Origin: a virus
IMG/VR virus record: IMGVR_UViG_3300034375_001279
Coordinates: 1 to 23,604 of that record
Direction: 5' to 3' (one strand)
Length of the DNA stretch: 23,604 bases
Shown here piece by piece: positions 1,599-21,234 of this stretch; the first letter of the stretch is position 1, and each line of letters begins with the position of its first letter. Made by a program: the position numbers and the translations under genes. The notes under the pieces were generated by a model that was not told the origin of the DNA, searched no databases, and was given only the letters and a program-made list of their open reading frames with translations.

Positions 1599-2278
1599 TA
1601 GCTTTTTACTCCAAATAAAACATAAGAACTTCCTGATACCATGTCTCCATTATCAAAGAAAATTCTAAAACCTTGATTATCTTCTGCTACACTGCAACAA
1701 CCACTACCCATTGTTAATGCACTATCACCATTAACATCTATATAACCACAATGAAAAGCAATTATAGTTTTTCTGTCAGTTGCTCTTGGCTCATGTATCT
1801 CATATTTTTGAACAGCAAATTCACCTGTCCCTGTGCCTGTTGCTCCGATATGAGTAATAGAACTCATAGTATCATCATCAAAATCAATACCTACTCCACG
1901 ATAGGCTTGCATTTGATAATCTGAAACTGTTGTCATTACTGTTCCTGTATTATCATTAAATCTTAAAAGTAATCTACCAACATCTGTAACAGGTCTCATT
2001 CTTGCATATAAAACATAACTTTTATAAGTAGTTGTAATTATAGATGTACTAAATTCAACTGTTGATGTATTTGAACTTAAAGTTTCACCTGCTAATCTTA
2101 CAAAATTTCCAGTTCCTGTTAAAGATGAACCATCTCCTATAAAGGAGTTTGCAGTAAGATTCCCACTAGAATCCATAGACATTTTATTTACGCCATTAGA
2201 CTGAAAATCTATAGCACCACTTGTATCAGATTCTAGCTGTAAGCCTGAAGTTGTATCTGCATTAATCTTAACTGTCAT
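1598..2278 (-). CDS. Putative tail fibre or fibre-tip protein, 226 aa
   Basis: The protein begins MTVKINADTTSGLQLESD, followed by IDFQSNGVNKMSMDSSGN and SFIGDGSSLTG. This leader is widely shared by marine phage fibre proteins and resembles the repeated beta module in front of variable tips. The rest (residues 60-226) is Ser/Thr/Gly-rich and ends SSYVLFGVKS, without catalytic motifs. I chose ATG 2276-2278 rather than the in-frame GTG at 2293. The ATG forms the TAATG overlap with the gp17-type gene stop, the same junction type seen at seven other places here, and homologous leaders usually begin MTVKI or similar. It probably extends or tips the fibre formed by the upstream protein. That role is inference. 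Confidence 0.72.
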   Translation of the reverse strand: MTVKINADTTSGLQLESDTSGAIDFQSNGVNKMSMDSSGNLTANSFIGDGSSLTGTGNFVRLAGETLSSNTSTVEFSTSIITTTYKSYVLYARMRPVTDVGRLLLRFNDNTGTVMTTVSDYQMQAYRGVGIDFDDDTMSSITHIGATGTGTGEFAVQKYEIHEPRATDRKTIIAFHCGYIDVNGDSALTMGSGCCSVAEDNQGFRIFFDNGDMVSGSSYVLFGVKS

Positions 2279-3822
2279 TAAAGTATTACCCACCTAGCAC
2301 CTGATGGCACAGTTACAGTAACGCCACTAGCTATAGTAATTGGAGAGACTGACATGCCATTAGTGTTTGTTGTTAATGTGTAACTAGCATCTATGCTGTT
2401 ACTGTTTTCATAGATAGCACCACCTGCTGATGCTCCACCACCGATTGCACCCCATGCAGAGCCATCATAACCCTCAAAAGATGTTTCATCTGAATTAAAT
2501 CTAATATATCCAGCTGATGGTGAACCGTCTCTTTGTGCTGTTGTACCTGATGGTAACTCAGCTGACCCTGTTGTACTAGTTTTAGTAACCACACCAGTAA
2601 GGTCAGTTACTGCGTCATTCCACGCTGAACCATCATAGACTCTTAGTTTGTCTGTTGTTGTGTTGAAATACAAATCACCAGCAGTTAAGGCGTCACCGTC
2701 ATTGTCTAGTGTAGGGTCAGAAGCCTTAGCTCCTAAATATGTGTCATCAAAGTTATCTGCTGCTGCCTCAGCTGCTGCTTGAGCTGCTTGAGCTGCGGTC
2801 GCAGAAGTTGCTGCATTAGTCTCAGATGTACCAGCATTTGTAGCAGAAGTCGCTGCGTTGGTCTCTGATGTTGCAGCATTGGTCTCAGAAGTTGAAGCCG
2901 CAGACGCACTAGACGCCGCATTGGTTTCACTTGTAGAAGCTGCACTTGCTGAGCTAGCTGCTGCCGTAGCAGAGGAAGCTGCATTAGTTTCACTTGTAGC
3001 TGCATTAGTTGCAGACGTAGCTGCATTTGTTTCTGATGTACTAGCATTACTGGCTGCTGTAGAAGCTGTAGATGCAGACGAAGCTGCGTTTGTAGCTGAT
3101 GTTGAAGCATTTGATTCGGATGTTGCAGCATTAGAAGCTGAAGTTGAAGCTGCTGACGCACTGGCTGCTGCATTTGTTTCAGCAGTTTCTGCATTAGTCT
3201 CAGCTGTTTCAGCATTAGTCTCAGCAGTTTCAGCCGCTGTTTCACTAGCTGCTGCTGCGGTCGCACTAGCTGCCGCTGCTGTAGCCGAAGCTGCTGCATT
3301 GGTCTCACTAGTAGAAGCGTTGGTCGCACTGGTTGCTGCATTAGTTGCCTGTGTTGTAGCCTGAGCTACCTGAGCAGACATAGCTGTTTCTGACCAATTC
3401 TTAGTAGCTGCGTCCTGTGCGTTCACAGGGTCAGCAACGTTGGTCATACGTTTATTTTGTGCGTCCCATTGGAAATTTGTTGCTGATATTTTAACGACGT
3501 CATCTGCGTCATCAATAGCTTCTTGAGCCATAAAGAAGGCTTGGTCACTATCCGTGTCTAAATCTGATTCTGTTAGTACTGAACCTGACGCATAATCTAC
3601 GAGCTTTGTGCCCTGACTTGTGGTTCTACGGATTTCTATAGCTGTAGAGGAAGCTGGAGCTGTGGTAAATGTAATCTGTGTACCAGCACCATTCCATGTA
3701 AATGCTGTAGTTAAAACACCATCTATAGTAATAGAGACGTCTTCTTGTGCCCTATAGCTAAAAGGTACAGAATAGGTAGTTGTGCTACCGTCACCTGTGT
3801 ACCTTACAAAACTGTTTGCCAT
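2278..3822 (-). CDS. Tail fibre protein with T7 gp17-type N terminus, 514 aa
   Basis: Residues 1-145 follow the T7 gp17 tail-attachment domain: YTGDGSTTTYSVPFSY, IEIRRTTSQGTKLVDYASGS, LTESDLDTDSDQAFFMAQEA and KRMTNVADPVNAQDAAT each have a recognisable T7 counterpart. Residues about 150-355 form an Ala/Ser/Thr/Asn-rich heptad stalk, presumably a trimeric coiled coil. Two short modules follow (LYFNTTTDKLRVYDGSAW and YIRFNSDETSFEGYDGSAW), then a C-terminal beta segment ending SGARWVIL. The total length is close to T7 gp17 (553), but the T7 tip domain is not recognisable, so host binding may be left to the following fibre genes. The ribosome binding site GAGGAAA lies 5 bases before the ATG. A promoter-like motif precedes it at 3840-3862. 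Confidence 0.93.
   Translation of the reverse strand: MANSFVRYTGDGSTTTYSVPFSYRAQEDVSITIDGVLTTAFTWNGAGTQITFTTAPASSTAIEIRRTTSQGTKLVDYASGSVLTESDLDTDSDQAFFMAQEAIDDADDVVKISATNFQWDAQNKRMTNVADPVNAQDAATKNWSETAMSAQVAQATTQATNAATSATNASTSETNAAASATAAAASATAAAASETAAETAETNAETAETNAETAETNAAASASAASTSASNAATSESNASTSATNAASSASTASTAASNASTSETNAATSATNAATSETNAASSATAAASSASAASTSETNAASSASAASTSETNAATSETNAATSATNAGTSETNAATSATAAQAAQAAAEAAADNFDDTYLGAKASDPTLDNDGDALTAGDLYFNTTTDKLRVYDGSAWNDAVTDLTGVVTKTSTTGSAELPSGTTAQRDGSPSAGYIRFNSDETSFEGYDGSAWGAIGGGASAGGAIYENSNSIDASYTLTTNTNGMSVSPITIASGVTVTVPSGARWVIL
2785..3330 (-). repeat. 26 gapless heptad repeats coding for a fibre stalk
   Basis: These 546 bases inside the fibre gene encode residues 165-346 as 26 consecutive seven-residue units such as SETNAAT, SATNAAS, SASAAST and AETNAET, with no insertion or skip. 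The DNA has a 21-base period but the units vary at synonymous and non-synonymous sites, so this is a diverged coding repeat, not a fresh tandem array. The period of seven and the alanine content fit a long trimeric coiled coil between the attachment domain and the distal modules. The same stretch opens long spurious frames in other registers, which are not genes. Confidence 0.9.
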
Positions 3823-3862: not shown

Positions 3863-6800
3863 GTAGTCCATGATATTTTGTAATATCTTTTTCCTGTCTG
3901 CTCCATACCTAGCAAAACCTTGAGCGTCAAACAATTCACCTCTAAGTATTGTTTCCTCTATCTCAGGAAAAGCTGTTGTTACTTTAGACCATGACATCTT
4001 TTCAGCACTATCAATTATCTTTAATATTTCTTTCTGTTGATAATCTTCTAACAATGTGTATTCAGGTGATGGTAAAGAATAGATGTAACTATTTTTATCC
4101 ATTATCAACTCTTCAATATACCCTCTTAAAGTTAAATCTTTTTTACCTTTGTAAGACCATTTAGTTTCACCTACTTGTTCCATCCAGTAATCATAAGCTG
4201 ATTGTCCCTTTTTGTTCTTAAGGTCTCTTAAATCTAGTTGAGTACTAGGCACTTTAGTAGATGGTCTAGTATATTTAAAATCCCTGTTTCTAAAGAAATG
4301 AGCTACTGCTGGGTTATCAAATTTAGTCCATGCAAATGGAGAAGAAACTAGATTTGCCCCTAAGAACCATCCTCTAGGTCTTTTAACTTTTTCACCAAAC
4401 ATGTTTCTCTCAGGCATAACGCCGTCAGCTCCTGTAGGGTCGAGACGTTTCATCCTGTCAACAAAGCTGGTTAATTCTTTTGCTTCATCATCCCACACTC
4501 TGTTGTTATAGCGTAAGAACCCTGATAAAGGTGTTGCTTTATATATTGCTCTAGCCATAACAGAACCAGCTGTTCTTTCAGCTGATTGCATACGCATTGC
4601 TTCATCTGATAAGAAGAAATGAGCTGTATCTAATATGTTTGTTGTATAAAACTTAGATGTTAAATTTCTAACAACAGAAGCAATTGCTGTTAATACTACT
4701 TCATTACCTTTATCTTCATAACCTTCAGGCAACACTTTAGAGTTGTGTGATTGTTGTATTTCATACCAGTCTACCATATCTGCTGCAATACCAAATGGCA
4801 TAAACATTGGGTCTAACCTGTTAAAACTAACATAACCACCATCATCTCTTCTATAAGAATATGGTTGCCACCCTGTAGCTTTAGTACGTTCTTTGTTAAC
4901 TCTGTAATCTCGGTCACCACCGCCTGTAACTTTACCTGACAAAGCTGCATAGATACCAGCTGACCATATTACGTAACCCATTTGTATGCGTCCAATAGCC
5001 TCAGCTGCTGCCTCAGGGTCAACTGCTTTAGATAGGTCAGTCATAGCTAGCCCACCTTTTCGTGGGTCAAAGTTAAGTGTACCACCATCTTTAGTTCTAA
5101 GTAGTTGTCTCATCTCTATTTGAAAACGCCCTAGAAATGGTAAATGTTGCATATTCCATCTAATTAAATTAGAAGGTGTATTAATAAAGTGCATACCTAA
5201 TACACGTAGTAGAGGGTATTCATTAGTCAGGTTCATTATACCTTTGGTAATGTTTACTGGAGCATCCCCACCTGTAATAGCATCTTTTACATTATAGTGC
5301 TGTGTATATGAACCTTCTTGTGCATAACGTAAAGGCGTGTTATATGCTTTTAAATCTTCAGGTCTTAGTTGTGCTTTCTCTTCAGGTGTAAAGTCTTCTA
5401 GCTTTTTAGCTTCACCTTTACTATCTGTATATATCTTTTCATACTCTTTAAATTTAGCTTTATATTCTTTATTTTGTTTAAAAGCATTCCATTTATTACT
5501 TACTAGTTCTGGGTGTTTAGACACAATAGTTTCATGTATGTTTGCAGCCATTCTACCTTTAAACAGCATTGATTTTAAAAACTCATCTCCAGCTCCTAAT
5601 GTTCTTAGTGGTGTTGTTACAGCATAGGTAGTTGGCTCTACTAAATACTTTTGAGCTAATGCACCTGTTCTACCTAATGGTGTTGTTATTAATTCTGCAC
5701 TAGCATTTAACCATCTTTGTAATTGTCCTTGTCTAATGTTGCTATCTACTTTTAGTTGTTGTCTATCTAGTAAAGGTCTTCCTTGTATAAATGCCATTTT
5801 TGCTCTAGACAGAGCGTGTCCTGTATATGCAAACTGCATAGCTAAAGTGTTGTAAGATTCTCTAAATACTGCTTGTGCACGGTCTCTGTCGTGTTTTACA
5901 AGGTTAGCAGCTTTAAAAGCCATAACGAATGGTTTATGTATAAACTGAGTCATCCCTGACATAATGTTTAATATATGAGTATCAGGAGAAGATAATAAGT
6001 TATTGTTTATATACTCAGCTGCTAAATCAATTTTTTTAAAGTTTTTAACATTATCTAATGCATTTATTATTTGTTTATCATCATCTAATAATGCAAGACG
6101 TTTTAAAAACTCTTCAGGGTCATCTTCTAAAAGTCTTTTCATTACAGGGTCTTGTGGGTCTGCTTTTAAATCAGCCGCTTCTAGTGCTGTTCTTGTAACT
6201 CGTCCAGCTGTTGTTGCCCTTGCGGGGTTTTCTGTAATTTCTTTTTGTTTTTTAGACAATGAACGTACTAATGTTAGGCGTTTTACACTTTCTTCTACTA
6301 GTTGTTTTCTGTCCGCAGTTGATAAATCAGGTCTGTTAAGTCTGTTACTTAACATTTGTACTTCATATAATTGACGTTGTATTAAATTACTGTGTGCGAT
6401 AACTACAGCAAACATATCTTTTTGTGATGCTAAGTCTTCACCTCTTCTTAGTACTTCTTCAGGTTCTAATCCCATTTCTTCAGCTATTTCTCTCATTTGT
6501 TTTAGTGATACTTTAGGTGATGCTAATTCTGTAGCTGTTTCTTGAATAACGCTATCTAACAAATGTGCATTTTTAGGGTCATCCATCCTGTCATAGTTAA
6601 AATCTTTATAAGGTGGTTTTCCCCTTCCTAGTGGAATTTGTCTAAGATTTTTGATAAACGTGGGATTGTCAGTGTCCATCTCTATTTTACTAAAAGATGG
6701 GTCATCCTTAGCTTTTTTAGGTTTGTTCTTATACAGCATAGGTGATTGTTTCACCTCTGTTAAGTCCTTAAATAAGGTTCTACCTGTTGTAGTGTCAACA

Positions 6801-13695: not shown

Positions 13696-13727
13696 AATAA
13701 AGAGGGGACAGCATAAGCCATCCCCTC
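13696..13727 (-). terminator. Rho-independent terminator after the capsid gene (T-phi-like)
   Basis: On the minus strand GAGGGGA pairs with TCCCCTC across an inner TGGC-TTAT-GCTG, giving an 11-pair stem (two G-U pairs) with a four-base loop at 13702-13727, followed by TTTATT. It lies between the capsid stop and the gp11-like start, where T7 has its T-phi terminator. The U tract is short, so read-through is expected, which is also needed for transcription of the tail genes downstream. On the plus strand no T tract follows, so it acts in the direction of the genes. Confidence 0.85.
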
Positions 13728-13748: not shown

Positions 13749-14732
13749 TTAAGCTTCTTTAATACCTACAGCTGCTTCAGGTCTAAGCACGCCGTGACCC
13801 ATAGCATATTTAGCTACCATCAATGTACCTTGACGTCTTATGTCATATTCCATTTCAGTTGCTAAGTCCATGAGCTTAACAGTACCAGCTGCTGAAGGGT
13901 GACAAACCAATGCAACATAGTTAGATAAATCAACTTGTTGTGGGTTTGAACCACCAGCTGTAGCAGAACCGCCGTCAACGTTTGTTGAAGCTGAGAAGTC
14001 AGAAGCCACAAAGTGTGGTGTTGGTACTAGTTCAATACCAGCAATCTTGACTACTTTACCTTCAGCAATAGAACCTTGACCACTAAAGTCAACGTTAATA
14101 GCGTTGGTAGCGTTTGCTAATTTGTAATACTCTTCAAGTCTGATGAAGCACTTACGTCCTTCTCTTGGCACATAGTTAGCGTCAAGCTGTTTAGCAGCGT
14201 CGAAGAGTGAATCAATCACAGCGTTAGCAGCTGTAGCAGCTGTCGCACTAGCGATTGAAGTGTTTGTTAACACAGTTCCTGAAGCATAGCCTGAATCAGC
14301 TACGTTTGCAGAAGCTTGTGCTGCTTGTCCGATTGTTTGTAGAATGTGCTTATCTTTTTGAAAAGCTAATGCTCTACCGATTTCGGAAGAATAAGAGCCT
14401 CTAACATCATAATGATTCTTTGCTTCTTCTATGTTAGAAAGAAAAACAGAAGATATCAATAAGTCATTGATTGTTATGATTTTCTCGTTGTGGTTTACGT
14501 CACTACCAGTGATTTCTGTACCAGCTGTATGATAAGAAGCATCAATTCTGCCCATTACAGGGAATTGTGCACTTTTACCATTACTGATTGTACGTACAGT
14601 CTCAGCTCCTTGAGTTACTGAAGCACGTTCAAATGAAGTTAATACCTCTCCTGAAAATACTTTAAGAAATAGAGCGTCTTCTGAACCACCAGTGTTGATT
14701 TTACCGACTGATACTGGACTAGCACCTGCCAT
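13749..14732 (-). CDS. Major capsid protein, T7 gp10-like, 327 aa
   Basis: A T7 gp10A-type capsid protein (345 residues in T7). Visible signatures include LFLKVFSGEVLTSFERASV, KSAQFPVMGRIDASYHTAG, EKIITINDLLISSVFLSNIE and EIGRALAFQKDKHILQTIGQ. The fold is expected to be HK97-like; it builds the icosahedral shell over the scaffold. The C terminus ends GHGVLRPEAAVGIKEA. I see no extended second product like T7 gp10B after the stop, because a terminator follows within 50 bases. The ribosome binding site AAAGGAG lies 7 bases before the ATG, among the best in the window, and a structured leader precedes it. Codon use favours clean synonymous choices, as for a highly expressed gene. Confidence 0.96.
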   Translation of the reverse strand: MAGASPVSVGKINTGGSEDALFLKVFSGEVLTSFERASVTQGAETVRTISNGKSAQFPVMGRIDASYHTAGTEITGSDVNHNEKIITINDLLISSVFLSNIEEAKNHYDVRGSYSSEIGRALAFQKDKHILQTIGQAAQASANVADSGYASGTVLTNTSIASATAATAANAVIDSLFDAAKQLDANYVPREGRKCFIRLEEYYKLANATNAINVDFSGQGSIAEGKVVKIAGIELVPTPHFVASDFSASTNVDGGSATAGGSNPQQVDLSNYVALVCHPSAAGTVKLMDLATEMEYDIRRQGTLMVAKYAMGHGVLRPEAAVGIKEA

Positions 14733-14868
14733 AATAAATCTCCTTTGGTTGTAGTTTAGTTGTTGTTAAACGCCTCTAAGATTCACCCCAAGATTGTCTT
14801 CCGCAGAAGGTCAAGTTGCACTACTTGTCGGCAACAGCCACCTAAAAAGGTCGCACTGTTATATTTTA
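14733..14868 (-). promoter_or_regulatory. Structured, G+C-rich leader of the capsid gene
   Basis: This is the longest gap in the window (136 bases). The stretch 14761-14860 has 47 G or C in 100 bases, well above the genes around it. Read on the minus strand it can form at least three neighbouring hairpins: ACCT-TTTT-AGGT at 14840-14851, extendable by two pairs past a mismatch to 14837-14854; GTTGC with an 11-base loop to GCAAC at 14815-14835; and CTTC-TGCG-GAAG at 14798-14809. An alternative GGC-TGTT-GCC at 14830-14839 competes with the first two. The segment next to the start is unstructured (AACAACAACTAAACTACAACC) and leads to AAAGGAG. T7 has promoter phi10 here. The hairpins are seen; a role as promoter region, mRNA-stabilising leader or processing site is inference. 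Confidence 0.5.
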
Positions 14869-15309
14869 CTAAAACTTATTCTTTTTACTACTGTTTTCTG
14901 AGGGTGTTAAATATTGTAAATTACCTATTACATGTAAGCCTGATACAGTTTCTCCTTGTAGGGGAATTATATGGTCTACGTGATAGCCTTTAGGAACATT
15001 CATATAAAACTTTCTAATAAGTTCTTCTTCAGACCAAGTCGGTGTTCTCAGTAATTCAGATGCTCTTCTTTTGGCACTGTGTACTCTGTATGTTAATTTG
15101 CCTTTCTTAGACTGTTTATATTTCTTTTGTGTTAATCTACCTTTATTAGACTGTTTATATTTCTTCAGTGCTAATTTACCTTCATCAGACTGTTGATATT
15201 TCTGCTGCTGTTTTTTATAAGCTGCAGTCTTATTATATAACCTGTGGTACGCTTTCCTATACTCTTTATAAGACTCAAAGTCTTCTTTGTTCAATCCAAA
15301 TTTATCCAT
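14869..15309 (-). CDS. HNH homing-type endonuclease, 146 aa
   Basis: The C-terminal half carries an HNH nuclease core: YHVDHIIPLQG at residues 109-119 (the DH pair at 112-113), then GLHVIGNLQYLTPSEN at 124-139 with the Asn at 130 and 139, and a basic end SKKNKF. The N-terminal half (1-35) is helical and charged. Residues 36-74 are three 13-residue repeats of the form KKYKQSxKGKLT, probably DNA-contacting. This layout is typical of free-standing phage homing endonucleases. The start ATG 15307-15309 overlaps the previous stop as TAATG; the in-frame GTG at 15321 is less likely. The gene lies between the small basic genes and the capsid leader, a place where T7 has no gene, so it looks like an insertion. 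Confidence 0.87.
   Translation of the reverse strand: MDKFGLNKEDFESYKEYRKAYHRLYNKTAAYKKQQQKYQQSDEGKLALKKYKQSNKGRLTQKKYKQSKKGKLTYRVHSAKRRASELLRTPTWSEEELIRKFYMNVPKGYHVDHIIPLQGETVSGLHVIGNLQYLTPSENSSKKNKF
15088..15204 (-). repeat. Three tandem 39-base repeats in the HNH gene
   Basis: The three units encode Q36-L48, K49-Q61 and K62-Y74 of the endonuclease (QQKYQQSDEGKLAL-like, KKYKQSNKGRLTQ, KKYKQSKKGKLTY). Units two and three share a run of about 20 identical bases (ttagactgtttatatttctt on the plus strand), so one duplication is recent. The repeats are rich in Lys, Gln, Tyr and Ser, fitting a linker that binds DNA. Confidence 0.85.
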
Positions 15310-15551
15310 TAGCACTTCCACTTACGTAAAGCTAGAGCCTTACGTGTTGGCTTTCCATTTGGTTTTTTCATTGCACCTTTAACACCACTCATTCTTGCAC
15401 AGAAACTTTTACGTCTCCCAGCTGCTTTAGAACCTTTAGGTGCTTTTCCTGTTACAGGTGGTTTAAGATTAGCCCCAGTCTTACGTTTGTAATAACGTCT
15501 ACCAGCGGCATTTAATCCGCCACTAGGGCTTTGGTGTTTCTTTGCTGGCAT
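15309..15551 (-). CDS. Small basic protein, DUF6321-like, 80 aa
   Basis: The protein begins MPAKKHQSPSGGLNAAGR and contains YYKRKTGANLKPPV, AAGRRKSFCARMSGVKGAM and a C-terminal RKWKC. I recognise this pattern as the DUF6321 family, short basic proteins common in marine phages near structural genes; the function is not known. It has 24 Lys or Arg and no Asp or Glu in 80 residues, and two cysteines (51 and 80). The ATG follows directly on the TAA of the 49-residue gene. Its stop overlaps the endonuclease start as TAATG. Nucleic acid binding inside or during head assembly is a reasonable inference. Confidence 0.82.
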   Translation of the reverse strand: MPAKKHQSPSGGLNAAGRRYYKRKTGANLKPPVTGKAPKGSKAAGRRKSFCARMSGVKGAMKKPNGKPTRKALALRKWKC

Positions 15552-15701
15552 TTACTTTTTCTTTCTTACTGTTTTCTTTTTAGGGAAACCAGCTTTCATA
15601 TTAGAATAAGCTGTCTTGCTTATGGTAGATTTAGACTTGGGTCTACTTGTTCCAGCTTTCTTACGAGCATTTATATTTGCATATAATCCACGTTTAGCCA
15701 T
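15552..15701 (-). CDS. Small basic protein, 49 aa
   Basis: A frame that opens MAKRGLYANINARKKAG and ends PKKKTVRKKK. The start MAKRGLYANIN is shared by short proteins in many marine T7-like and other phages, usually beside the scaffold or capsid genes. No function is known to me. It has 17 Lys or Arg and no acidic residue in 49. The ATG overlaps the stop of the 18-residue frame (TAATG), and its own stop abuts the next ATG. The coupled arrangement and the conserved start support a real gene despite the small size. DNA or RNA binding is likely from charge alone. Confidence 0.8.
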   Translation of the reverse strand: MAKRGLYANINARKKAGTSRPKSKSTISKTAYSNMKAGFPKKKTVRKKK

Positions 15702-15757
15702 TAACATTTACCTCTTTTTTTAGTCTTCCCTTTTTTCATTGGTTTACCATATGACAT
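15701..15757 (-). CDS. Possible 18-residue basic peptide
   Basis: The frame reads MSYGKPMKKGKTKKRGKC and then TAA. It has 8 Lys or Arg and no acidic residue in 18. The ribosome binding site AGGAG lies 7 bases before the ATG, just after the scaffold stop. The stop overlaps the next gene's ATG as TAATG, exactly as in other real junctions here. These two facts are the reason to list it. It could also be a leader that only carries ribosomes to the 49-residue gene, since that gene has no strong site of its own other than a weak AGAGG within this frame. No homologue comes to mind beyond a general resemblance to 'MSYG/MPYG..KK' starts of small phage proteins. Confidence 0.6.
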   Translation of the reverse strand: MSYGKPMKKGKTKKRGKC

Positions 15758-19483: not shown

Positions 19484-21234
19484 TATCCCTCGCAAGCTAT
19501 ACATTCCCCATCAGGAATAATTGTTCGTTCTATCTTTTGTGACACTAGTTCTGCTCTCTTTATTGCTTCTGAGCGACAGTAGTAAAGCGTCTTGAGTTTT
19601 CTTTTCCAAGCCAACATGTGTATGTCATGTAGTTCACGAATGTGTACATCAGCTGGAACGAATACATTAACAGATTGTCCCTGACAAATAAACTCTTGTC
19701 TGTCTGCTGCATGTTCTATTATCCACTGTTGATTAATTTCTATGGCTGTCTTGAATGTATCCTTTTCATAATCAGTAAGACCTTTGAGTTCTAATACTGA
19801 ACCTCTGTTGGCTAGTATCTTCTTCCATGTCTTCTCATCATTCATACCTTTACTTTCTAATAGTTTCTCTAGGTGTTTATTCTTAACCAAGAATGAACCT
19901 GACATTGTCTTCTGCACATAGGCATTAGCCCTGTATGGTTCAATAGCCGGTGATGTAGTACCGCAGATGATTGAGCTAGAAGCGTTAGGTGCGATAGCAA
20001 GTAGGTGAGCGTTACGCCTACCCGTACCTTCCATGTCAGGTGCTTCACCTTTCTTAATAGCTAGTCGTTTAGATTCTTTGACAGCCTGTTCCTTAATGTG
20101 TTTAAACATCTGTAAGTTTTTAGACTTAGCTAAAGCTGATTCAAATGGTATGCCTTTAGATTGTAAGTAAGAATGGAATCCCATTGCACCTAACCCTAAG
20201 CTACGTTCATTCACAGCAGAAAACTTAGCCTTGTATAAAGTGTCAGGTGCGTTGTCAATAAAGTGCTGTAGCACATTATCGAGAAAGTGAATTAAATCAG
20301 GTATGAACATTGGGTCAGCCTTCCACTCATCATACTTTTCTAAGTTGACTGAAGACAAACAACACACAGCTGTACGTTCTTCATTAGTTGGTAAGGTTAT
20401 TTCTGTACATAAATTAGAATGGTTTACTTTTAAACCTAAATCTTTTTGTGCTTGAGGTAGTCCATCATTAACTGTGTCACCAAACATAATGTATGGCTCA
20501 CCTGTGGCTACTCTGTTTTCTAATATACGCTGCCATAACTCACGTGCTGATATAGTTCTTACTGTCTCATTTGTATGTGGGTCAGTTAGATTCCAGCTAT
20601 CATCAAACGTTGGTTCTTTAATACAGTTGTCAATCAACTCCATGAAGTCATTAGATAAGTTAACACCATGATGTAGGTTAAGACACTTCCTGTGTACATC
20701 ACCACCACTAGGCTTACGCATATCTAGAAACTCTATAATCTCAGGATGGCTTACGTCCATGTAAGCGGCATAGCTGCCCCTTCTAGTCTTTCCTTGTGAG
20801 AAGGCTAACATCTCTGAGTCTACTACATGTAGAAAAGGTATTGACCCTGACGACTGAGAACCATTGCTAGTGCTAGTACCATCAGAACGTACATGACCCC
20901 AGTAACCACCAACGCCGCCACCGACTGAGGCTAGCCAAGCGTTCTCTGTGTAGTGTCCAGTCAGTCCTTCTCTACTATCAGGTACATAATTAAGGAAGCA
21001 TGAAATAGGCATGCCTCTCTCTGTACCACCATTAGTTAAAATAGGTGTGGCGTACATGAACCATAGCTTAGATGAATAATTATATATACGCTCAGCCATC
21101 TCATCATTAGCAGAGAAAGCTTTAGCTGCTCTCATGAATGCATCTTGTGGTGAGGTCTCTTCAGGTAATAAGTACCTATCATGTAAGGTAGTCTTACCAA
21201 ACGAGGTTAACAATTCATCTCTGCTATAATCCAT
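19483..21234 (-). CDS. nrdA: Ribonucleotide reductase class I, large (catalytic) subunit, 583 aa
   Basis: The enzyme reduces ribonucleotides to deoxyribonucleotides for phage DNA synthesis. Active-site pieces are all visible (numbering from the ATG used): redox Cys 79 (PISCFLN), the thiyl motif NLCTEI with Cys 276, partner Cys 291/292 (AVCCLSSVNL), the Tyr pair 551-552 (TLYYCRS) for radical transfer, and the C-terminal CxxC (GECIACEG). The protein begins directly at the ten-stranded barrel region; the N-terminal ATP-cone of E. coli NrdA (761 residues) is absent, so dATP feedback inhibition is probably lost. I chose ATG 21232-21234 because AGGAG sits 5 bases upstream; the GTG at 21240 is too close to that site. 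Confidence 0.95.
   Translation of the reverse strand: MDYSRDELLTSFGKTTLHDRYLLPEETSPQDAFMRAAKAFSANDEMAERIYNYSSKLWFMYATPILTNGGTERGMPISCFLNYVPDSREGLTGHYTENAWLASVGGGVGGYWGHVRSDGTSTSNGSQSSGSIPFLHVVDSEMLAFSQGKTRRGSYAAYMDVSHPEIIEFLDMRKPSGGDVHRKCLNLHHGVNLSNDFMELIDNCIKEPTFDDSWNLTDPHTNETVRTISARELWQRILENRVATGEPYIMFGDTVNDGLPQAQKDLGLKVNHSNLCTEITLPTNEERTAVCCLSSVNLEKYDEWKADPMFIPDLIHFLDNVLQHFIDNAPDTLYKAKFSAVNERSLGLGAMGFHSYLQSKGIPFESALAKSKNLQMFKHIKEQAVKESKRLAIKKGEAPDMEGTGRRNAHLLAIAPNASSSIICGTTSPAIEPYRANAYVQKTMSGSFLVKNKHLEKLLESKGMNDEKTWKKILANRGSVLELKGLTDYEKDTFKTAIEINQQWIIEHAADRQEFICQGQSVNVFVPADVHIRELHDIHMLAWKRKLKTLYYCRSEAIKRAELVSQKIERTIIPDGECIACEG

Follow-up and report, generated by a model that had tools for sequence, protein, structure and literature searches.

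Results

A structured RNA leader at the capsid gene

The noncoding gap in front of the major capsid gene of IMGVR_UViG_3300034375_001279, an HTVC019P-like (T7-like) phage, contains a cis-linked structured RNA whose existence is near certain from comparison of related sequences. The core, a short hairpin of two helices, has a YNMG tetraloop and an invariant asymmetric loop in which a C lies opposite AYAA. It is present in a single copy, on the sense strand and just 5' of the capsid gene, across a broad range of T7-like phages. The window, by which we mean the whole stretch of DNA analysed, is this 23,604-base virus record. The features on which the analysis draws are as follows.

13702–13727, minus strand: strong intrinsic-terminator-like hairpin (11 pairs, then TTTATT), directly 3' of the capsid gene
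13749–14732, minus strand: major capsid gene (PF21703 Gp10A-like, E 1.7e-89; phrog_267 major head protein)
14733–14868, minus strand: capsid leader gap, 136 nt, noncoding, 5' of the capsid gene
14740–14746, minus strand: ribosome-binding site AAAGGAG of the capsid gene, read directly, with small changes in relatives
14772–14774, minus strand: 3' side of helix P2a, GGC, inside a conserved AGAGGC
14789–14815, minus strand: conserved core, with P2 (14815–14811 with 14793–14789; two U-U mismatches in this sequence), unpaired C 14810, P3 (14809–14806 with 14801–14798), UGCG loop (14805–14802) and ACAA (14797–14794)
14830–14832, minus strand: 5' side of P2a, GCC, the outer closing helix with GGC 14772–14774
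14834–14859, minus strand: hairpin P1, outer helix 14859–14855 with 14838–14834, inner helix 14851–14848 with 14843–14840
14869–15321, minus strand: HNH/endonuclease VII-like gene, directly 5' of the leader (phrog_1035, E 1.9e-12; phrog_1271, E 1.9e-4)
15552–15707 and 15309–15551, minus strand: two very small, strongly basic proteins between scaffold and capsid (phrog_25774; DUF6321)

The nearest named relatives of the capsid protein belong to HTVC019P-type Pelagibacter phages, at no more than 86% protein identity. Upstream of the capsid gene, the HNH-like gene, the two small basic proteins and the scaffold gene lie on the same strand. Near-identical copies of the HNH/endonuclease VII-like gene occur in just two of six related IMG/VR loci, and this patchiness suggests a recent mobile insertion at the boundary of the leader; here, and also in loci L385 and L386, it stands between a small basic protein gene and P1. 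Comparable small basic proteins precede the leader in HTVC019P, HTVC120P and CRP-125, and those between scaffold and capsid could be nucleic-acid binding partners. Elsewhere in the window, tandem repeats with a 21-nt period occupy 2785–3360 within an open reading frame at 2278–3822.

Base composition and folding energy

The gap had been singled out as unusually rich in G+C. The count behind that claim holds (47 of 100 bases at 14761–14860), but the contrast is mild: the record averages 37.3%, the capsid gene 41%, and 5.9% of the record's 100-nt windows attain 47. Folding, proposed as a check, gave energies at the level of shuffled sequence. Dinucleotide shuffles of the 136-nt gap fold as well as the gap itself, whichever strand is taken (z −0.27 and −0.16), 76 of 200 shuffles being equally good or better for the fold at z −0.27. 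The G+C and folding signal of this gap alone is not beyond chance. Single-sequence folding z is about 0 for the gap and likewise for the cores family-wide, so folding energy by itself would have discarded the structured leader.

Covarying helices in pelagiphage leaders

Capsid relatives (80) were taken from IMG/VR for comparison of their leaders. Alignment A1 holds 34 leaders, which remained of 175 after thinning at a similarity ratio of 0.955; its rows were picked by a sequence pattern that set no condition on the stems. The leader is kept from P1 onwards, and the sequence just before P1 varies among relatives. RNAalifold returned 18 pairs for the 34 leaders, 14 of them with two-sided changes. 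For the named structure, P1+P2a+P2+P3, 98.8% of cells are paired; none of 500 shuffles reached its cell counts or its covariation score, and sliding the partners by 1–3 columns lowered pairing to 31–52%. The original prediction called for just such an alignment of the gaps in related phages. Compensatory changes are found in its stems (14 of the 19 pairs of the named structure change on both sides) and the leader is conserved; both results strongly favour reading the gap as a structured RNA leader of the capsid gene.

The evidence is unevenly spread over the helices. All nine pairs of P1 show two-sided compensatory changes. P2a is complementary in 95.1% of cells and changes from GCC/GGC to GCU/AGC in two leaders, and the P2 pairs vary too little among these 34 leaders to give covariation evidence. 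Outside the core, the two arms of a leader match each other better than they match arms of other leaders (0 of 20,000 permutations equalled this), a comparison confounded by relatedness.

The original prediction named three adjacent stems and a competing one. Two of the three are real helices: the stem at 14840–14851 is the inner part of P1, paired in 33 of 34 leaders and covarying, and that at 14798–14809 is P3, paired in all 34 and covarying. The third, 14815–14835, is paired in only three of 34 leaders and was rejected as a chance stem of this one sequence. The competing stem at 14830–14839 survives in part. In 33 of 34 leaders, GCC 14830–14832 is complementary to GGC 14837–14839 in the 3' arm of P1. 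The stem is no longer than 3 bp, however, and some of its bases are also used by P1 and by the GCC/GGC helix. Since the same GCC is complementary to both 14772–14774 and 14837–14839, its partner is ambiguous. The alternative GGC/GCC stem (minus strand) includes AGC/GCU forms although it excludes P1. The ribosome-binding site AAAGGAG was confirmed where it had been placed.

The core recurs before T7-like capsid genes

A first IMG/VR pattern scan was built from the core. Among the matches listed, a T7-like capsid gene follows in 173 of 189 places over all loci, and in 103 of 119 when new loci and the window are counted; 16 of the 189 are chance matches in unrelated sequence with no T7-like capsid after them. 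The core is present before three capsids with 31–41% identity. Loci of capsid relatives gave the general form R-C-[4-6 bp]-YNMG-[4-6 bp]-AYAA-Y, flanked by P2, a variable helix. In 101 distinct cores, collected with a scanner that accepted only AYAA or UYAA, a paired P3 and a closing base able to pair, the tetraloop is UGCG (43), UACG (33), UGAG (13) or a rarer form, the 3' loop is ACAA (56) or AUAA (45) and the closing pair is G-C (83) or A-U (18).

The strict core is found in 216 of 235 T7-like capsid leaders, with no occurrence elsewhere in the same loci (987,401 bases per strand) or in 11,750 shuffled leaders. These 235 come from 241 redundant loci, six having been dropped for too little upstream sequence or an unrecorded capsid start, and all were chosen through capsid similarity except L202, L282 and L283, which entered as motif matches. 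Inspection of 14 of the 19 negative leaders revealed mostly near variants (ACAC, AAAA or a longer P3).

Pairing in P3 was assessed independently of selection by a blind IMG/VR scan in which the loop, AYAA and outer pairs were fixed and two P3 positions per side left free. It gave at least 120 matches. In all 120 listed, the bases at the free positions are complementary, and the capsid-linked ones among them show 17 different combinations. Just upstream of a T7-like capsid gene lie 117 of these 120; two more are on contigs that end too soon, and one (L450) is a chance match in unrelated phage sequence. From the 3' end of the core to the inferred capsid start the distance is 52–146 nt in 113 of the 117 and 376–610 nt in the other four. 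Alignment A3, of cores from the wider family, was filled by a scanner that required a paired P3 and the first pair of P2. The free evidence there is confined to pair 10–30 (69 of 71), the remaining P2 pairs and the loop class, a selection bias from which A1 and the blind scans do not suffer.

Model R1, which defines this RNA family, has a sole match in the window, at 14782–14821 (39.3 bits, E 1.4e-8), the window being one of its training rows. The sequence there fits the family form R-C-[4 bp]-YNMG-[4 bp]-AYAA-Y with P2 pairing. The genes upstream of the leader vary among phages (scaffold, HNH, tRNA, psbA/hypothetical or small basic protein). Hence, the element is linked to the capsid gene and not to an upstream gene.

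The core in named phage isolates

Twenty GenBank isolate records were read and scanned with R1. Nine have a match at E 0.0033 or better: Syn5, HTVC019P, RHEph01, BB8, CRP-125, HTVC025P, CRP-361, P-SCSP1h and P-SCSP2. Syn5, HTVC019P, BB8, CRP-125 and HTVC025P are training rows of the model; CRP-361, P-SCSP2 and P-SCSP1h, from outside training, score 32.2, 27.8 and 20.3 bits. A variant element with a weak R1 score or none was recognized by eye in HTVC120P (6-bp P3), LUZ100 (enlarged P3, 13.1 bits), P-SSP7 and NATL1A-7 (AUAC) and ctgrD200 (ACAC). Five of the 20 isolates, T7, Rostov-1, phTUNSm, VSW-3 and ProddE, do not have the element, and S-RIP1 was kept outside the count of presence and absence as its record begins at the capsid gene. 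The hosts of the element-bearing phages span six host groups. Over the 38 records scanned, a strong match (E below 0.01, 26 records) is always single, and all other matches have E above 0.05.

T7 and Rostov-1, both without the element, have a T7-type promoter at the same position. By resemblance, phTUNSm presumably has a promoter of its own type there. In HTVC120P, the capsid gene is interrupted by about 190 nt (684–874) and two capsid coding sequences are annotated; the interruption has a look that we take to be group I intron-like.

An RNA rather than a DNA signal

Cores tolerate G-U pairs: of 71 cores, for example, 12 have U-G at one pair, and four have G-U at another. These pairs, the YNMG loops and the single orientation argue for a signal in RNA rather than in DNA. 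The proposal that the gap is a promoter region has in its favour that the element precedes a highly expressed late gene. It finds no support in phages whose promoters have been located. The only phage promoters of Syn5 are at 4929 and 44797, and with the capsid gene starting at 20017 the nearer is about 15 kb upstream; according to PMC3950665, over 37 kb are served by a single promoter. The experimentally mapped promoters of LUZ100 lie off the element, the nearest being phi7 (20586–20635), about 560 nt upstream of the capsid gene and described by its authors (PMC10134795) as local and capsid-controlling. Judged on Syn5 and LUZ100, which are other phages bearing the element, no promoter of the T7 phi10 type coincides with it. 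Within the window, no repeated intergenic promoter-like motif was seen among the best 20 of at least 60 repeat families. With the RNA-type features of the core and its one copy per genome, a promoter or other DNA-level signal is scarcely credible.

A T7-like RNA polymerase is encoded by all 20 isolates, which makes co-occurrence with the element uninformative as a discriminator. The element could in principle be an RNA that acts on this polymerase, by anti-pausing, pausing or marking a termination boundary, in the manner of the HK022 put RNAs. P1 and P2/P3 of the pelagiphages are two adjacent hairpins, as in the put layout, two unassigned 3' ends of LUZ100 (T14 and T15) lie upstream of its capsid gene, and the polymerase is encoded by every one of the 20 isolates. 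However, the five element-free isolates share the polymerase family, and HK022 has its best R1 match, which is not credible, inside a gene (12.7 bits, E 0.8). The Syn5 polymerase is moreover processive to about 30 kb in vitro without the element, as reported in PMC3950665. We regard this explanation as improbable.

A proposed role of the leader in capsid output

Among the options offered by the original prediction, an mRNA-stabilizing or processing leader fits best, with a mechanism that we infer; a switch between two folds, also on that list, is conceivable. Our preferred reading, held tentatively, is that the element is a capsid leader which acts in cis and after transcription, most likely by forming or protecting the 5' end of the capsid mRNA. 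It would set the output of the capsid gene within the long polycistronic late RNA. In several lineages, the stretch just 5' of the core carries a tRNA, an arm resembling one or, like P1 in the window, an additional hairpin. RNase P or another nuclease may cut there and leave the invariant hairpin near the new 5' end, where it could recruit a factor or prevent decay. Most likely, the element would thus mark or form, and then shield, the 5' end of a separate capsid mRNA.

Where a phage has a single promoter, capsid can exceed its neighbours only through events after transcription, and at 52–146 nt from the start in nearly all listed cases the core is too far away to mask the ribosome-binding site. 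For 23 of 79 cores, a T-arm is present in the 150 nt on the 5' side, those of the Syn5-like type being about 20–26 nt away. All eight tRNAs that ARAGORN called in the 241 capsid loci precede the capsid gene by 400 nt or less; five share its strand and three are on the opposite one. Upstream of the core are tRNA-Asn in LUZ100 and RHEph01, tRNA-Gly in NATL1A-7 and tRNA-Met in L282. The presence of these tRNAs and T-arms suggests that the capsid mRNA may be cut free here, with the hairpin guarding its 5' end.

Two further observations concern these structures. In L364 and many of L202–L281, leaders of cyanophage type have uncalled tRNA-like acceptor/T-arm structures about 20–26 or about 92–99 nt upstream of the core. 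L062, L072 and L073 carry a tRNA-Thr (2756–2829) on the opposite strand, which ends 172 nt before the capsid start.

Several findings count against the 5'-end reading. A tRNA or T-arm is present in a minority of lineages only, and family-wide the 62 nt upstream of the core are only modestly enriched in structure (mean z −1.13 versus −0.49 in controls). LUZ100 does possess a promoter, phi7, some 560 nt before its capsid gene, and a phage RNA polymerase in every isolate is compatible with a transcriptional partner. Finally, the invariant loop argues for a specific partner, which would be superfluous for simple end protection.

The same loop speaks for a protein-binding translational element, in which a phage or host protein (ribosomal, capsid or small basic phage protein) on the C/AYAA hairpin would raise or repress capsid translation. 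An invariant asymmetric loop with a constant tetraloop class is typical of a specific site, and the element is nearly always at the capsid gene. The capsid protein itself is unlikely as the ligand, because the element is kept at 31–41% capsid identity and across host phyla, and the element does not overlap the ribosome-binding site. We consider translational control of this kind rather unlikely.

Beyond the post-transcriptional capsid leader lies a wider and more speculative proposition. The element may represent a new functional-RNA class, near-universal in one large part of the T7-like phages, whose C/AYAA loop would be recognized by a partner conserved across host phyla (phage RNA polymerase, ribosome or core host nuclease). 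It would possibly have replaced a local capsid promoter as the means of raising capsid output in phages where one promoter drives the transcription of tens of kilobases.

Many T7-like phages bear the element, with marine and other bacteria as hosts; SAR11, Prochlorococcus and Synechococcus, which rank among the most abundant marine bacteria, are among these hosts. The element probably helps the phages make enough shell protein from one very long message. It bears on how phages with one or two promoters overproduce capsid protein relative to its transcriptional neighbours, a question that a compact, single-copy, strongly conserved RNA at the capsid gene makes directly testable. It is also a genomic marker of T7-like capsid genes in metagenomes and may give a useful expression leader.

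Comparison with known RNA families and systems

No Rfam 15 family matched the element at gathering score in the whole window, 10 pelagiphage loci or 16 further loci, and a permissive scan of 14600–15000 gave only a 14-bit microRNA match (E 6.8). The literature examined held no description of this leader. Fremin and co-workers have reportedly assembled a large catalogue of phage structured RNAs, which may contain it under a number. With respect to Rfam 15 and the literature examined, the element appears to be a new, undescribed family of structured mRNA leader with a putative function.

A self-cleaving ribozyme or ligand-sensing riboswitch could account for the highly conserved internal loop and for the competing 3-bp stem kept in nearly every pelagiphage leader. 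Yet no Rfam ribozyme or riboswitch model falls on the element in the stretches scanned, the conserved core is small (about 27 nt) and the ribosome-binding site has no expression platform, making this very improbable. Structured leaders do occur in cyanophage and marine viral sequence, as in the Rfam cis-regulatory families manA, wcaG, PhotoRC-II and glutamine-II. A 2010 catalogue of 104 candidate RNAs (PMC2864571) includes marine and cyanophage motifs; the word 'capsid' is not in its main text. None of the four families matches the element. P-SSP7 has a glutamine-II riboswitch match (389–442, 48.1 bits) about 250 nt upstream of its capsid gene and separate from the element.

The put RNAs of HK022 are short tandem hairpins that act in cis, after which the elongating polymerase ignores terminators. 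Gene context and polymerase type differ from those of the element, and HK022 has no credible R1 match.

T7 provides two further comparisons. Its RNase III sites are structured RNAs between genes of a polycistronic message, and a processing site of the kind found in T7 early mRNA was among the options first proposed for the gap. A phage leader hairpin with an asymmetric loop would suit such a site. The duplex of the element is much shorter (P3 of 4–6 bp, P2 of about 5 bp), and its invariant loop and tetraloop class are conserved beyond the needs of a duplex-length signal, leaving this option unsupported and highly improbable.

The second comparison is with the phi10 promoter and gene 10 leader of T7, which share with the element the site just before a T7-like capsid gene and the service of high capsid expression; likewise, the terminator-like hairpin at 13702–13727 occupies the position of the T7 terminator. 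T7 has the promoter and lacks the core (its best R1 match, 15.1 bits, lies elsewhere), whereas the element is a covarying RNA without a promoter. In the phages that carry it, the element would do the job of T7's dedicated capsid promoter plus leader.
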